Shown: piece after piece, positions 50,470 to 56,734 of the stretch
Layout: each line of letters starts with the position of its first letter
Numbering within the stretch: the first letter of the stretch is position 1
Source: Pegethrix bostrychoides GSE-TBD4-15B
GTDB taxonomy: Bacteria > Cyanobacteriota > Cyanobacteriia > Elainellales > Elainellaceae
Length of the DNA stretch: 64,000 bases
Assembly: GCA_019359155.1 (NCBI GenBank)
Contig: JAHHHV010000065.1
Location: 62,001 to 126,000 of the forward strand
Reading direction: 5' to 3'
Notes under the pieces: generated by a model
What the model was told of the DNA's origin: nothing
Database searches by the model: none
The model's input: only the letters and a program-made list of their open reading frames with translations
Made by a program: the position numbers and the translations under genes

Positions 50470-51142
50470 AATTCTCTCCTGGTGGTAATAGAGTTTGCAG
50501 ATAGTATTGCTTTCAAGTCAATTGCTCAAACAGCATCGGATTGAGCTGACCTTTCTGCAAGTTTTCTCGCAAGAGTTCCAAGTTCAAATCTTAACAAAAA
50601 TGGCACTCACCCTAGTAGTCCGAGAGAGGCACTTTGCCTAGTTCAATGCCGGTAGTGTCATTTATTGAAGGACAGAGGAAAAAGCCTGCTTTTGAGAGCT
50701 TTGTCAGCCAAGACTTCTGAAATTGATGATTATTCTCTATCCTTTAACAAGTATCACTACCCAATATTTCTGCGCCATGCATCGGGATAAGGGGAATAGC
50801 TATCCAGCGGCGATGCGGACATTAGCGCTTAAGTGGATACAGATCTTGTTTCGCTGTTGAGCGGAGAGCTATATGATGAAGCAAAATGTTTAGTAGCACT
50901 AGAATGCAATAATTTACTAATTGCGAAGATTATAGATAGCAAGCAATAAGTGAAGAGAATACAGTTGCTAAATTCAGTTAAAAAAGAGAATATGGATAAG
51001 AATAATTTTCTTACCATGACCATAACAAGGTAAGTTGACTTGGGCAGTTGATGAGAGCGAGAATTGATGAACGGCAAGATTTCAAACCCTACTTGACTCC
51101 GTTCGGCTCAGAGATTATGTTGTACCGCGCCGCTTACGTAAC
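50470..51142. other. AT-rich spacer upstream of bcp
   Basis: About 670 bases between bcp and the end of the TIGR04255 operon. Sequence is noticeably AT-rich. On the plus strand a GTG-started frame of 38 codons at 50833-50949 has a protein-like look (acidic start, Leu-rich), but it has no clear ribosome site and I do not call it. No hairpin typical of a terminator, no tRNA, no IS end seen. Confidence 0.55.
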
Positions 51143-51730
51143 TTATCCTTCACGCTCACTTTCATACTGAAAAGGCAGCGCAACTCTACCGTGAAAGCTA
51201 TGATACCGTCTAGAAAAATGCTCCAAATATGGACTAGCTAAAATTGCTCTGCGTTTAACCATACCAAGTTCGATTTGACGATATAAAGTTGATGCATCCA
51301 TACCAAGAACCTTTTTGAAATCAGCAGTAAGTTCAGGTAAACCTTCTTGCTCTACCTCACATTCAGGGGGAATCTTTTCAAAAAAATAAAATCTTTCATG
51401 GCGATGAGCAACAACCAATTCCCACTCCTTCCGGTTCATTCCGTCTGTGCTTCTAATTGATTCCGCTGTTCCTATTTCACACAAAACGATCGAATTCAAA
51501 AGCTTAGCTGGGTTATTATTAATTCCTCTAGCTTTATAATCCCAATCGAGGTCACAATCTTGTGTAATGACGATTGAGTATGGATGAATGATGGGCGTAA
51601 AAGATAACTCCTGAAGCTCTTTCGGTATTTCATCAATAACAGGGTTATATTGAACCACGCCTGTCACAATTTCTCCTTGCCTCAGCGAGGAACCTTTATC
51701 TGATGCTTGGTAGATAGCCCGTTCTTCCAT
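51143..51730 (-). CDS. Third gene of TIGR04255 operon, unknown protein with TQDCDLD motif
   Basis: About 195 residues; not assigned to a function. The conserved-looking parts are GEIVTGVVQYNP, YSIVITQDCDLDWDYKARG, RHERFYFFEKIP, EGLPELTADFKKVLGM and SPYLEHFSRRYHSFHGRVALPF. I recall proteins with a TQDCDL box and a PYLEHLS...RVALP end as sporadically spread hypothetical proteins. Acidic and aromatic residues suggest a small domain with a metal or nucleotide site, but that is guesswork. ATG at 51730 is used; TTG at 51745 is also possible and would leave 5 bp to the gene upstream. Codons are A/T-rich compared with the rest of the window. Confidence 0.65.
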   Translation of the reverse strand: MEERAIYQASDKGSSLRQGEIVTGVVQYNPVIDEIPKELQELSFTPIIHPYSIVITQDCDLDWDYKARGINNNPAKLLNSIVLCEIGTAESIRSTDGMNRKEWELVVAHRHERFYFFEKIPPECEVEQEGLPELTADFKKVLGMDASTLYRQIELGMVKRRAILASPYLEHFSRRYHSFHGRVALPFQYESEREG

Positions 51731-51750
51731 GCGGTGATTTACCAAACAAT

Positions 51751-52230
51751 CTAAGGTTCTAAAACAATAGGTGGTCTGACCTGCATAGCACTCAACTTGC
51801 CTCTAATAGTACTAGCAGGGATCGTAGGTAGCTCGGCTTGAGGAAAGCGATTTGTATAGAAGCGATAAATTCCTTCCAACTCCTCAGAAGCTTCTTCTAG
51901 AGCAGATTCAGGCAATGTCTGAATAATAAGTAAGCATTTTAGTAACAGCATCAACTTGTCTGGCGACAAGCGATGTGAATCAGTTCTAAAAGATAAAGAT
52001 GAGCCAGACATCATCAAATCAAAGGAAGAGTATTGAATTACGATAGCCTTGCCACTTTCTCTATCGAAAACCACATTATTGGAAGTAGTACCTGATGAAG
52101 TTTGACTATGCTTGTACTGATACTGATTCAACTGATTGGGGTTGCATGGCATTATGGAGGGTATCTGTGATGCTCCACCTAAAGAGCCTTCCGGCAGACT
52201 GATTGAACTGATTGAGTACGTTCCAGACAT
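51751..52230 (-). CDS. Second gene of TIGR04255 operon, unknown small protein
   Basis: A 159-residue protein I do not recognise. The first 40 residues are Ser/Pro/Asn/Gln-rich (disordered-looking), then VVFDRESGKAIVIQYSSFDLMMSG, LSPDKLMLLLKCLLIIQTLPES, an acidic helix and IYRFYTNRFPQAELPTIPAS, ending RPPIVLEP. The start at 52230 has GAGGG about 8 bases upstream, so I prefer it although it overlaps the end of the TIGR04255 gene by 125 bases in another frame. An alternative ATG at 52152 lacks a ribosome site. It probably works with its two neighbours. Confidence 0.55.
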   Translation of the reverse strand: MSGTYSISSISLPEGSLGGASQIPSIMPCNPNQLNQYQYKHSQTSSGTTSNNVVFDRESGKAIVIQYSSFDLMMSGSSLSFRTDSHRLSPDKLMLLLKCLLIIQTLPESALEEASEELEGIYRFYTNRFPQAELPTIPASTIRGKLSAMQVRPPIVLEP

Positions 52231-52909
52231 CTTTATTACCCTCTATCTTCTGTTCTGTGTAAAAGTCGGCATCAAACAGGTAAGCAATCTCATCACTGCT
52301 GCCCTGTGCTTCTTTAACATTCACCAATCCATGATTCAGATTAATTTGCCCAATTTCCGTTTTCAAAACTAAACTCTTTACTATTGTTTGAATTGAGGAA
52401 GAAAAATTCGCCTCATATAGTTCTGAAGCAATATGTTCAGCTATTAACTCCGACCAGTTTTTATCTTCAATTCCAAGTTTTGAGCGAATAATTAAGTCTT
52501 GGTAACGAAGTCCAATTCTTGTATAAAAGGATGGCTTATAGATCGCTTCAAAAATCCCTAGAGCCTCCTCTAAACGCTGTTTAAATTGCTCATAATGCTC
52601 ATATGAGGAAGTAGTTAAAGCAATAAAATCCTTATTAAGGGAGAGGCTCCATCTCTGGTCTTCTGATTTAAAGTTATAAGCAACGTCACTTTGCAGAGGT
52701 AGTCCTAGTTGCTGTACAACCTGTGAGATTTCGGATGGAAGTTGCGCCCTAGTCGTCTCAAAAAGAGGATATTTAAATCTAATCGTATCCTGAAACTCAA
52801 CTGGCTCTTGGTGAGAAATCTTGAGTATGGGCGGAAAACGCAATTGACAGACAACCTCTACAAGAGGGTTGCGCTTGTAAATTACACGCTCAAACTCAGG
52901 CAAGTTCAT
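52106..52909 (-). CDS. TIGR04255 family protein
   Basis: A 267-residue protein with the start I recall for this sporadically distributed family: ERVIYKRNPLVEVVCQLRFPPILKI, then FQDTIRFKYPLF. Later FIALTTSSYEHYEQFKQRLEEALGIFEAIYKPSFYTRIGLRYQDLI is typical, as is the C-terminal VWNVLNQFNQSAGRLFRWSITD. Function of the family is unknown; it is patchily spread and usually next to small unknown genes. The ATG at 52909 is the likely start (a TTG precedes it). First gene of a three-gene minus-strand operon. Codon use is AT-rich relative to neighbours, suggesting horizontal arrival. Confidence 0.8.
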   Translation of the reverse strand: MNLPEFERVIYKRNPLVEVVCQLRFPPILKISHQEPVEFQDTIRFKYPLFETTRAQLPSEISQVVQQLGLPLQSDVAYNFKSEDQRWSLSLNKDFIALTTSSYEHYEQFKQRLEEALGIFEAIYKPSFYTRIGLRYQDLIIRSKLGIEDKNWSELIAEHIASELYEANFSSSIQTIVKSLVLKTEIGQINLNHGLVNVKEAQGSSDEIAYLFDADFYTEQKIEGNKDVWNVLNQFNQSAGRLFRWSITDTLHNAMQPQSVESVSVQA

Positions 52910-53605
52910 CAAAATCTGCTATACGCCTCAAGACTACTACATCAGCTCTAGTTTAAACTGCCGAGCTACCTCTTTACCAGTAGTTTCAATCACTCTTTAC
53001 TACAATTGTGGTCTAACTTTAACCATCTCAGCGAACTTTTAGAGCAACACCCGACCAATAACCTCTCGGTTACTGCCCTAAGCAACAGCTCCAGCAGCCC
53101 AACTATTAATAGACTGAAAATCTCCGCCTAAGATCCCGTAATAGCTGGATAGGCAAAGTGAGTCGCCATAACACATTACTTAGGCAGCATCTTTCCGTAT
53201 AATACGCTTCCTTGCCCCGTTAAGCAGAAGTTTTCCGCATATCGTTACAGGTGAAGCTAAAGGCAAACTGCTCTCTGTCTCAGAAGCAAGATAGCCTCAA
53301 ATGAGCTGTCTGCCTAGCCCAATCTCACCAAACGTAAAAATTCTCTCATGCCCACTTGCGCTCAGCCAGAGTTTCGGTTTATGATTCACCACACTGATTG
53401 CGTGGAGCGGTCAGGACAGGAAAGCTTAAGGCGTCGCTGACTAGAAGTGGTGGAACACGACTAGCCAGCTAACCCGACTTCCCGATAGGCACGGGAGGCA
53501 AGGCTGAGTCGATTTTACATCGCGCTCGCTTCGTTCACGCATGTGGTCAGGTGACTCAACGCCTTAGGCTTTCAAAGCCATACCCAAAAATACGAGGCAA
53601 ATATC
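52910..53605. other. Spacer upstream of the TIGR04255 operon and of the 66-codon gene
   Basis: About 700 bases without a gene. The left part must carry the operon promoter. TATAAT at 53198-53203, with TTACTT 16 bases before it, could be a plus-strand promoter for a long leader. The part 53423-53579 can form a multi-branched RNA and is listed separately. Confidence 0.5.
53423..53579 (+). ncRNA. Candidate structured leader RNA upstream of the 66-codon gene
   Basis: AGCTTAAGGCGT (53423-53434) pairs over 12 bp, one G-U, with ACGCCTTAGGCT (53559-53570). Inside are smaller helices: TTCCCG/CGGGAG around 53479-53496, ACAT-GCG/CGC-ATGT around 53517-53543, TGAGTC/GACTCA, and CTGAC/GTCAG. GGCTTTCAAAGCC (53567-53579) is a small hairpin that shares four bases with the 3-prime arm of the closing helix, so the two could be alternatives. 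The gene starts 26 bases on. It does not match any riboswitch class I can recall. Confidence 0.4.
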
Positions 53606-53806
53606 ATGTCTACAGAGTTCAACGAGCGTCTGCCGGAGTCGCTTGGCCATCAGGCGCAGATTTGGATTGTCGGGACGCGAGAGCAGGTGAACCACATCAT
53701 CAGCGAAATGTACGTCAGGCAGATGATTACCGACCGCAGCCAATTCTCGCCAATGGTTCCTGCACCGTTCGCGCAGGGTAAATTCATGAGCGTACTGCTG
53801 CGATAG
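53606..53806 (+). CDS. Small cyanobacterial protein of unknown function
   Basis: A 66-residue protein. A core IWIVGTREQVNHIISEMYVRQMI and end SPMVPAPFAQGKFMSVLLR resembles a family of 60-80-residue cyanobacterial proteins with VTGTRQQVLxFI...SPLLPAP...MSIL patterns that I recall without a function. GAGG stands 9 bases before the ATG, so this start is chosen over a longer frame from 53551. The leader contains the structured RNA candidate. It converges on the VIT/VWA PEP-CTERM gene with a 66-bp gap, and an inverted run GGTGCAGC...GCTGCACC (53820-53847) between them may end both transcripts. Confidence 0.7.
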   Translation: MSTEFNERLPESLGHQAQIWIVGTREQVNHIISEMYVRQMITDRSQFSPMVPAPFAQGKFMSVLLR

Positions 53807-53819
53807 TCGTGAGCGGGTG

Positions 53820-53872: not shown

Positions 53873-56734
53873 TCAAAACTCAGAGAGCTTTTGCTTTTGG
53901 ACGCGGTAGACCCCAAACAGCAAACCAGCAGCCAGAATTAGCAGCAGCCACTCCGACGGTTCGGGCGTGGCCGAAACTGCTAGCGGCGCGCTGGGTTGAG
54001 GCAGCGCCTGATCTTCCACCTCGCGATTAAAACGATCCTTGTCCTGCTCGGCCTGCCTCAGCGCCTGCCGCTGCGCGTCGTTGACCAGCACCAGCATGGA
54101 AGAGTAGGGCGAGACAATCCCGTACTGTTTGGTGATGGCGTGGATGCTGTCCAGCTCTTGGAGCTGATCCGGCTTCACATACTGACTCAGGTGCGTCACC
54201 CATTGGCGAGCCGCCAGCGCCTCAAAGTTTGGATCAGTTTTGGCATCAGGCAGCGGCGTTTTGGCCAGATACCAGGCATAGCCGTCCACCAGATTTAGCC
54301 GCGTCGTGTTGGATCCCAGACTCGGCTGCGTCCCCAAGCGCTGCATGACTGGCTCTAGCTGCGTCGCCACGCCGCCGCCGCTGTTTTGGATTGCGGCCAG
54401 AGTCGCGTCGTCGTAGGCAGACTGCAAGCCGCCCAGATGCACCATCCAGAGTGGGGCAGAGAGATCCAGCGCGGCAGGTTGATCAGCAGTCAGCTCGTAG
54501 CTTCCGGCATCGGTGAGCAGCAGTACTGCGTCATAGGCGCTGTCGCCGCGCAGGTCGAGGAACTGTTGCAGCATCTGGCTGGGGGCAATTGTGCCGTAGA
54601 AGCTGGACTGAGTCAGCTGCTTCAGGTCGTCTAGGCGGCGCGGCTGGGCCGGAGATGCAGCCGTCAGGTAGAGATCGGCGCTGTTTTGAGTCAGGACGTG
54701 AGACTGAAGCCACTGGAAGCTCTGCTGCACCTCGGCTGAGTGAGCGTTCATGCTGTAGGAGCCGTCCAACAAAATCGCAAATCGCTGGCCTTGGGGCAGC
54801 TTGTAGTCGCTGGCGGCAAAGGGTTGGGCAATAATTTGCGCCTCTGAATCACTCCCTGAATCACTCCCTGAATCACTCCCTGAATCACTCCCTGAATCAC
54901 TCCCTGAATCACTCCCTGAATCACTCCCTGAATCACTGCCCCAAGACAACGGCATCTGATGCGCGACAGGCTGAAACGGCTTGGCAGCAGGCGCTTTGGG
55001 AAACCAGGTATCGCTAGCGACCGACTTACCGTTCAGCTGCCGCTGCGTGCGGTTTGTCCAGAAGATGTTGCGGCGTTCGTGCAGCTCTGGCAATGCCCAG
55101 CCGTCTGGCTGCTGCAAGACTTTGTAGGTGAGCCAGAGATGCATCTGCCCCTGACCCAGCGGCGGAATTGGGAAGGCACGCAGCCGATATTGGCGTGGGC
55201 CGACCTGCTCCAAAAGCGCCGGATCTTGGCGACGAGTTACCTCAGCGTTGTAGACCTGCTGCGCCGCGCCGCGTGGCGAGACTGAGAAAGCATAGCGCTG
55301 GCTGCGGTCATCCGTTTCGCCCAGCCAGAGTCCGGTGATCACGGCGCTTTCGGGCAGCGAAAAGAAGTAGAGAATTTCCTGCTGATCGAGCGTTTTGTTT
55401 TCGTAGACTTCATGCAGCTCTACCTCCGCCCAGTCGCCTTGCGGAGTCAGCTTGAGCTGCTGCTGCGCCAGCCAAACCCGCTCCTCGTTGACATCGTTCA
55501 GTCCAGCTTTGGCCTCGCTACGGTTAAACGTAGACTCCAGCGCGTTTTGGATCGCCGGCTTCTCGCCCCGCAAAATCGGCGTATCAAAAAACTGGCCGTA
55601 GAGGGCGCTGGCTTTGTCGGCATCGAGATTGGCATCGCCGGGATAGGTAAACGGCGAGAGCAGCAGGCCATAGGCTTGCTGAAGCGCAAATGCCCAGCTT
55701 TCTGGAGCCTGAATCGCGCGATACATCTGGTAGATATGCCCGTTCTCAGCCAGCTGACTAGCCTGACGCGGATAACGATACCGAGCCAGATAAGCATTCA
55801 CCAGCCCTTGCCGAATCACACCTTGCTGTTGCAATAATTCTTGCTGAGCTTGCGGCGTGGCAGCAGGAGCAGCCAGCAGCTTGAAGGCTGTCAACTGCGG
55901 TGGCTGATTCAGCGTGAGAAATAGCCCCAGGCCGCCCACAGCCACGCCCGCCGTCAGCAGCCCCGCCCAGATCCGTCGTTCGCCAAACGAGCGCACCGTC
56001 TGCCACCAAGCTTGGCCGTAAATCCAGAGCGCCCCCAGAGGCGACAGCAGCAGCCCCAGAAAAATGATCCAGATGGGCAGCAAGATACCGGCATAGAGAA
56101 AGAGCAGCATCACCTGAGGCAGAGAGAAGATCAGCGCCGAAATGGAAAGCCAGCTCAGCGGCAGCAGATAGAAGCTGATTAGAGCCGTGCCGTAAACGGC
56201 CAGCACCAGCATCAGCGAGAAGCCAATCAAGTAGCCAATGTTTAAGTAGCCAATATCGGCAGTGCCGCTGTGCGGCTGCATTGGGTCAATCGCGTCGAGA
56301 TGCTGCTGATAGAGCCAGTGGCACAAGCTGAAAATGCCAACCAATCCAGCGGCCAGAAACAGCGTTGTGCCCGGAGTCAGGTCGCGCAGCCAAAAGAAGC
56401 GCAGGGTGCAGAGTGCCAGCAGCGGTGCTTCAACGCCCCAAAACAGCTGCGGCAGCGAGAGACGGCGCTTTTGTTTGGGCAGTACGCCAACAGTCGCGCA
56501 GGCAGTCGGCACACCCACCAAGCCAACAAACGGCAGGAAAAAGTCCCAGGGCACCAGACCCGACATCAAATCGCCAATCAAGGCAAGGCCAATGAACGGC
56601 AGCAGCCCCAAATAGGCCACCAGCAGCAGCGAGGCATTGAACGCCCAGAAAAAAGCCTGCGAGAAGAACCGCTTGCAGATCCAAGTGCAGATCTCGAAGC
56701 CAAGCTGAAGCAGCGAAACGAAAGGTGACTTCAT
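53873..56734 (-). CDS. PEP-CTERM integral membrane protein with VIT and VWA domains (TIGR02921-like)
   Basis: A 953-residue protein. Residues 1-290 hold about eight membrane helices. A VIT-like domain (about 420-545) reads AEVELHEVYENKTLDQQEILYFFSLPESAVITGLWLGE in strands. A Ser-Asp-Gly repeat follows (about 600-630), then a VWA domain with the MIDAS motif ILLDGSYSMN (DxSxS). The C-terminus TPEPSEW, a hydrophobic helix and a basic tail is a PEP-CTERM sorting signal. I recall TIGR02921 as exactly this unusual polytopic PEP-CTERM family. The exosortase next to it is the expected processing enzyme. Role unknown; VIT-VWA suggests metal-dependent adhesion in the periplasm. Confidence 0.86.
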   Translation of the reverse strand: MKSPFVSLLQLGFEICTWICKRFFSQAFFWAFNASLLLVAYLGLLPFIGLALIGDLMSGLVPWDFFLPFVGLVGVPTACATVGVLPKQKRRLSLPQLFWGVEAPLLALCTLRFFWLRDLTPGTTLFLAAGLVGIFSLCHWLYQQHLDAIDPMQPHSGTADIGYLNIGYLIGFSLMLVLAVYGTALISFYLLPLSWLSISALIFSLPQVMLLFLYAGILLPIWIIFLGLLLSPLGALWIYGQAWWQTVRSFGERRIWAGLLTAGVAVGGLGLFLTLNQPPQLTAFKLLAAPAATPQAQQELLQQQGVIRQGLVNAYLARYRYPRQASQLAENGHIYQMYRAIQAPESWAFALQQAYGLLLSPFTYPGDANLDADKASALYGQFFDTPILRGEKPAIQNALESTFNRSEAKAGLNDVNEERVWLAQQQLKLTPQGDWAEVELHEVYENKTLDQQEILYFFSLPESAVITGLWLGETDDRSQRYAFSVSPRGAAQQVYNAEVTRRQDPALLEQVGPRQYRLRAFPIPPLGQGQMHLWLTYKVLQQPDGWALPELHERRNIFWTNRTQRQLNGKSVASDTWFPKAPAAKPFQPVAHQMPLSWGSDSGSDSGSDSGSDSGSDSGSDSGSDSGSDSEAQIIAQPFAASDYKLPQGQRFAILLDGSYSMNAHSAEVQQSFQWLQSHVLTQNSADLYLTAASPAQPRRLDDLKQLTQSSFYGTIAPSQMLQQFLDLRGDSAYDAVLLLTDAGSYELTADQPAALDLSAPLWMVHLGGLQSAYDDATLAAIQNSGGGVATQLEPVMQRLGTQPSLGSNTTRLNLVDGYAWYLAKTPLPDAKTDPNFEALAARQWVTHLSQYVKPDQLQELDSIHAITKQYGIVSPYSSMLVLVNDAQRQALRQAEQDKDRFNREVEDQALPQPSAPLAVSATPEPSEWLLLILAAGLLFGVYRVQKQKLSEF
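54849..54932. repeat. Seven exact 12-bp tandem repeats, in frame
   Basis: TCACTCCCTGAA occurs seven times without change, with partial copies on both sides. On the coding strand each unit encodes Ser-Asp-Ser-Gly. It lies between the VIT and VWA domains of the PEP-CTERM protein. Perfect identity points to recent expansion; units of 12 keep the frame. Confidence 0.97.

Follow-up and report, generated by a model that had tools for sequence, protein, structure and literature searches.

Toxin-antitoxin-chaperone (TAC) systems, such as Mtb HigBA1-SecB-TA, consist of three genes in which one SecB-like chaperone serves HigBA, HicAB or MqsRA pairs through a C-terminal tail (ChAD) on the antitoxin, and this dependence can be moved to other antitoxins (PMC5105189). 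In the related phage-defence system CmdTAC, the chaperone senses phage capsid protein and its loss frees the toxin (PMC11618068). We analysed a three-gene unit in a cyanobacterial genome of 5.7 Mb that resembles TAC in having three genes and one component shared among unrelated pairs of downstream genes, but whose shared component, a member of the unassigned family TIGR04255 (NCBIfam 'sporadTIGR04255'), does not match SecB by sequence and is encoded by the first gene instead of the last. The extra tail of the middle protein is N-terminal and Ser/Thr-rich, and no Pfam or NCBIfam match was found for the second and third proteins that would place them in the HigBA, HicAB or MqsRA families. Two other described kinds of loci are related to some of the sister operons, namely VapBC (PIN toxin) type II toxin-antitoxin pairs, which ordinarily lack TIGR04255, and two-gene HEPN loci (PF05168 plus an upstream partner gene).

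Three genes of the operon and their coding status

The window, which is the whole 64,000-nt stretch analysed here (contig JAHHHV010000065.1, positions 62,001 to 126,000), contains the three genes ORF1, ORF2 and ORF3 (Table 1; g1, g2 and g3 hereafter denote the corresponding genes of any such operon, and L numbers denote individual loci). GC content was 0.41/0.40 in the 51–53 kb region against 0.55–0.60 on either side. ORF1 scored 167.4 bits against TIGR04255 (cut-off 30 bits) along model positions 2–251 of 252, while no family was found for ORF2 or ORF3 in Pfam, NCBIfam or PADLOC, and none of the three proteins matched a PADLOC 2.0.0 model at E values of up to 10.

We then compared the codons of the three genes with those of six relatives. 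ORF2 outside the overlap had a pN/pS of about 0.2–0.4 and ORF3 of about 0.1–0.3, and within the overlap ORF1 lost synonymous change in four of six comparisons (pS of 0.13–0.22 against 0.54–0.64), as expected if both frames are read. ORF2 and ORF3 are therefore not frame artefacts, which the earlier note had named as one possible refutation of its reading. The 'TQDCDLD' box and the 'RVALP' end pointed out in the same note were found to be near-invariant parts of a protein family, in which Q23, G24, C64, D65, R187 and P191 are conserved in 36–37 of 37 sequences.

Table 1. Coordinates of the features described in this study
Feature	Sequence	Coordinates	Strand	Remarks
ORF1 (g1), TIGR04255 family protein	window	52106–52912	-	268 aa; conserved start is the ATG at 52909; proposed shared controller
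ORF2 (g2)	window	51751–52230	-	159 aa; Ser/Thr-rich N-terminal tail and conserved C-terminal core; proposed antitoxin
ORF3 (g3, class A)	window	51143–51745	-	200 aa (195 aa from the ATG of the conserved start at 51730); gap to ORF2 of 5 bp to the TTG or 20 bp to the ATG; proposed toxin/effector
Double-coding overlap of ORF1 and ORF2	window	52106–52230	-	125 bp
Transferable unit	window	51143–52913		1.77 kb
Dispersed repeat	window	53093–53807		0.7 kb
Small ORF within the dispersed repeat	window	53606–53806
Gene of a 953-aa membrane protein	window	53873–56734
Gly-Ser-Asp-Ser repeat within the membrane protein gene	window	54748–54936		Perfect-looking
Operon with first gene not reached by the TIGR04255 profile	L006	149–2019		First gene of 259 aa
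Operon with split class A third gene	L054	7153–9300
TIGR04255 gene broken into two frames	L071	5541–6279		Stop codons
Plasmid operon with papain-like-looking third gene	L083	2174–4471
Trio in the phage tail region	L104 and L105	4001–6145

Conservation and transfer of the trio

Close relatives of ORF3 were found in 2 of 291 other sampled cyanobacterial genomes and in six GTDB contigs, all eight of which had the same three genes in the same order with the same overlap but with different flanks. DNA similarity to three of the six closest (L016, L017 and L018) ended at 51142/51143 and 52912/52913, and in the other three (L014, L015 and L019) it ran on by at most about 190 bp. In two genomes of the same genus (L167 and L168), the neighbouring bcp and epimerase genes were kept, but an alpha/beta hydrolase gene was found next to bcp where the window has the trio. 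Directly upstream of the trio we found a dispersed repeat with about 40 further places in the same genome matching it in whole or part (67–92% identity) and with no Rfam match, which is possibly a small mobile element linked to the insertion. These results supported the earlier note, which had guessed a transferable module headed by a patchy TIGR04255 gene and asked whether the trio stays together in unrelated genomes. Its suggestion of a role in defence or stress was sharpened to a toxin-antitoxin-like module by the sister operons described below, although phage defence itself remains inferred.

TIGR04255 was found in 29 of 292 sampled cyanobacterial genomes, on 12 plasmids and in 3 phage records in the first search, and also in viral contigs. 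Nearly everywhere it was followed by a middle gene and a third gene, often with ATGA-type or longer overlaps, whereas a few TIGR04255 loci (L066, L081, L091 and L095) had no such trio in the stretch read and one (L071) was apparently a pseudogene. Such operons were found in cyanobacteria, proteobacteria, Actinomycetota and Deinococcota and on conjugative plasmids and prophages. In L104 and L105, the trio sits as a cassette between genes of the phage tail region, like a moron. No DNA-level match to the trio of a Klebsiella plasmid was found in E. coli genomes.

Diversity of the third genes

Clustering of 46 operons gave 27 with the ORF3 family (class A), smaller families B and C, two HEPN, two PIN and singletons, and with further plasmid and viral operons the count for class A was 38 of 58. 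Class A spans cyanobacteria, alpha-, beta- and gammaproteobacteria, Actinomycetota (Kocuria, Paenarthrobacter) and Deinococcota (Meiothermus), and its common denominator is QG near the N-terminus, (T/S)QxCD in the middle and RxAxP near the end. A tblastn search of plasmids with the window ORF3 itself detected none, but searches with class A proteins found new loci, its distant relatives, independently of TIGR04255, and every intact one that was opened lies directly behind TIGR04255 and a g2, while two others (H19 and H23) were degraded. In L054, a class A third gene was split by what looks like a TnpB-type insertion sequence while TIGR04255 and the middle gene stayed intact. In L006, a class A third gene was accompanied by a first gene that the TIGR04255 profile does not reach, which is perhaps a diverged or different controller.

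Among the other third genes, PIN (PF01850, L073 and L078) and HEPN (PF05168, L067) were recognised by Pfam, and L068 clustered with L067. Those of L083 and L097 looked by eye like permuted papain/NlpC-type proteins (HVG...WxHH...GLTCATxV), which no profile confirmed. Only 4 of the 58 operons have a third gene of a recognised RNase-toxin family, and the HEPN proteins show R-N-K-A-D-Y where many HEPN RNases have Rx4-6H, so their activity is unsure.

Middle genes and their relation to antitoxin-like partners

We next searched cyanobacteria for two-gene loci cognate to the HEPN operons. The gene before HEPN in these loci encodes a partner of mostly 110–130 aa (longer in L148, L151, L153, L155 and L157), and the C-terminal half of g2 in L067 and L068 was homologous to it (blastp 1e-4 to 3e-27), where a profile of the partner found just these two g2 proteins (hmmsearch, 3e-34 and 8e-28). 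In the two-gene loci L147, L149, L152, L154, L156 and L158, the partner has almost no N-terminal extension, whereas an extension, of about 70–100 residues in the TIGR04255 operons, was found where an extra first gene is present, with one exception, L148, which has a long partner without such a gene. Interestingly, the extra first gene was TIGR04255 in L067 and L068 but a different gene of about 230 aa (IPQQYQLGITxxIKIDE...) in L151, L153, L155 and L157, which was unrelated to TIGR04255 by profile for the three copies tested (L151, L153 and L157), suggesting a possible second controller family.

In the PIN operon L073, the 79-residue g2 ends in IPILPDEAFSRESIYSDHD, which aligned with the VapB of locus L145 (9e-9 in a pairwise test and 0.0025 in the genome search), and its PIN protein was 43% identical to the VapC of that locus, although the VapB-like tail rests on one short alignment. 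So where the kind of g2 and g3 can be recognised, they are an antitoxin-like partner and a toxin-like effector. Class A g2 proteins of the long type carry an Xre/CI-like HTH, as in antitoxins.

On a maximum-likelihood tree of 58 TIGR04255 proteins, the class of the third gene changed at least 13 times, and close TIGR04255 relatives carried different effectors (L078 PIN with L080 class A, support 100; L049 class B with L056 class A, support 95). The g2 proteins fell into many unrelated clusters, yet their first 60 residues were poor in charge and rich in Ser/Thr (23.5% against 13.3%) in 42 of 43 proteins and in all 12 clusters tested, and in 27 of 27 proteins and 10 of 10 clusters when restricted to proteins whose start lies next to the g1 stop, while the third proteins showed only a slight difference. 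The N-terminal composition of ORF2 is partly set by the overlap with ORF1. The window ORF2 was also grouped by phmmer with the g2 of L049, L063 and L065, but the shared part was mostly the N-terminal tail, which in the window and L049 lies inside the overlap with g1, and this grouping was not taken as homology of the antitoxin core. The tail is the one feature that g2 proteins share and is therefore the best candidate for what TIGR04255 recognises, which is an inference.

Structure prediction

The AlphaFold2 model of TIGR04255 was of good quality (pLDDT 84, pTM 0.82) and predicted a two-lobed alpha/beta protein, with P16, P49, Y104, R132, R136, Y137, D214 and F244 conserved in 58 homologues. 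Its top Foldseek hit was McsB (E value 5e-4), and most of the best rows of a structural alignment search (VIA-align) were guanidino kinases (Z up to 8.7, 193 residues, 4.1 Å, 10% identity), but TBP and AdoMetDC were matched too, and these similarities are too weak to name a function. SecB was not among the fold matches listed, which is not evidence against such a fold. The ORF3 model was unusable (pLDDT 43), and ORF3 matched no toxin family. A link of the ORF3 family to MazF/PemK (PF02452) was not upheld, since the profile score of 24.2 bits with 26 sequences (shuffle maximum of 17.1) fell to 18.05 with 37 sequences, and single MazF proteins scored like decoys. Solved-structure sequence searches with the ORF3 and TIGR04255 profiles gave nothing credible, and a viral fold library gave weak hits only.

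A proposed tripartite toxin-antitoxin-like module

Taken together, we propose that the three genes form a mobile, tripartite toxin-antitoxin-like module, with ORF3 as the toxin, ORF2 as the antitoxin and TIGR04255 as the shared controller, working like the SecB-type chaperone of TAC/CmdTAC. In this model, TIGR04255 holds ORF2 through its N-terminal tail and keeps it folded or stable so that ORF3 is held inactive, and when TIGR04255 is titrated or disabled by a trigger, for example a phage product or loss of the element, the antitoxin fails and ORF3 stops growth. In the absence of toxicity, binding or phage data, the roles of all three proteins, the trigger and the benefit are inferred, and we consider this explanation only somewhat more likely than not. 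It is supported by the conserved unit whose ends coincide or nearly coincide with the genes, its plasmid and prophage carriage, the exchange of the third gene among unrelated families including PIN and HEPN, the homology of the middle gene to the partners of ordinary HEPN and VapBC pairs in those cases, and the shared tail. On the other hand, ORF3 itself belongs to no known family, and the best fold matches of TIGR04255 do not point to a chaperone.

A three-part anti-phage or anti-plasmid immune system, in which TIGR04255 is the sensor, ORF2 an adaptor and ORF3 an effector that is silent until activated, with no antitoxin in the strict sense, appeared unlikely but was not dismissed. The cassette-like carriage in prophages and conjugative plasmids would fit this view, exchangeable effectors are typical of defence systems, and individual operons were found beside multiubiquitin/ThiF/DUF6527 genes (L083) and a DarT/DarG-like pair (L014). 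However, these neighbours were noted case by case without a statistical test, the window has no recognised defence gene next to the trio, its proteins have no PADLOC match, and the HEPN and PIN operons carry the partners of ordinary two-gene pairs in the middle position, which points to neutralisation.

It is more doubtful that TIGR04255 is an enzyme that modifies or phosphorylates the antitoxin or toxin in the manner of the guanidino kinase/McsB fold that it resembles most. While its charged residues R132, R136, D214 and D216 are widely conserved on two strands of a well-predicted model, they are kept in only 44–49 of 58 proteins, and Z scores of 7–8.7 at 4 Å are within what unrelated models reach. 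Equally doubtful is an ordinary accessory metabolic or regulatory operon that happens to be mobile, with the PIN and HEPN genes as chance neighbours of TIGR04255. This view can draw on the absence of functional data and of a known family for ORF3, but the tight coupling with the PIN and HEPN genes in the same slot (ATGA overlaps and 100-bp overlaps), the partner sequences carried by g2, the repeated class changes on the g1 tree, and the plasmid and phage carriage argue against it.

The family name, PIN and HEPN toxins and tripartite TAC systems were known before, whereas the three-gene architecture, its spread, the exchange of effectors, the antitoxin-like identity of g2 in recognisable cases and the class A family appear to be new, as far as can be told from a literature search that found no mention of TIGR04255 but cannot prove novelty. 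A broader view, which we hold only tentatively, is that TIGR04255 is the hub of a cross-phylum class of tripartite toxin-antitoxin or phage-defence modules, in which a non-SecB protein binds a Ser/Thr-rich tail grafted on antitoxins of unrelated families and so brings many different toxins (the ORF3 family, PIN, HEPN, papain-like and others) under one sensor, with ORF3 representing a toxin family of unknown fold and chemistry. If the proposed module is true, it would give a role to a 'sporadic' orphan family found in about one in ten sampled cyanobacterial genomes and on plasmids and prophages of several phyla, would name at least three apparently undescribed effector families (ORF3 type, class B and class C), and would show that the tripartite design of TAC systems, one controller with exchangeable toxin-antitoxin cores, is also used with an unrelated controller.
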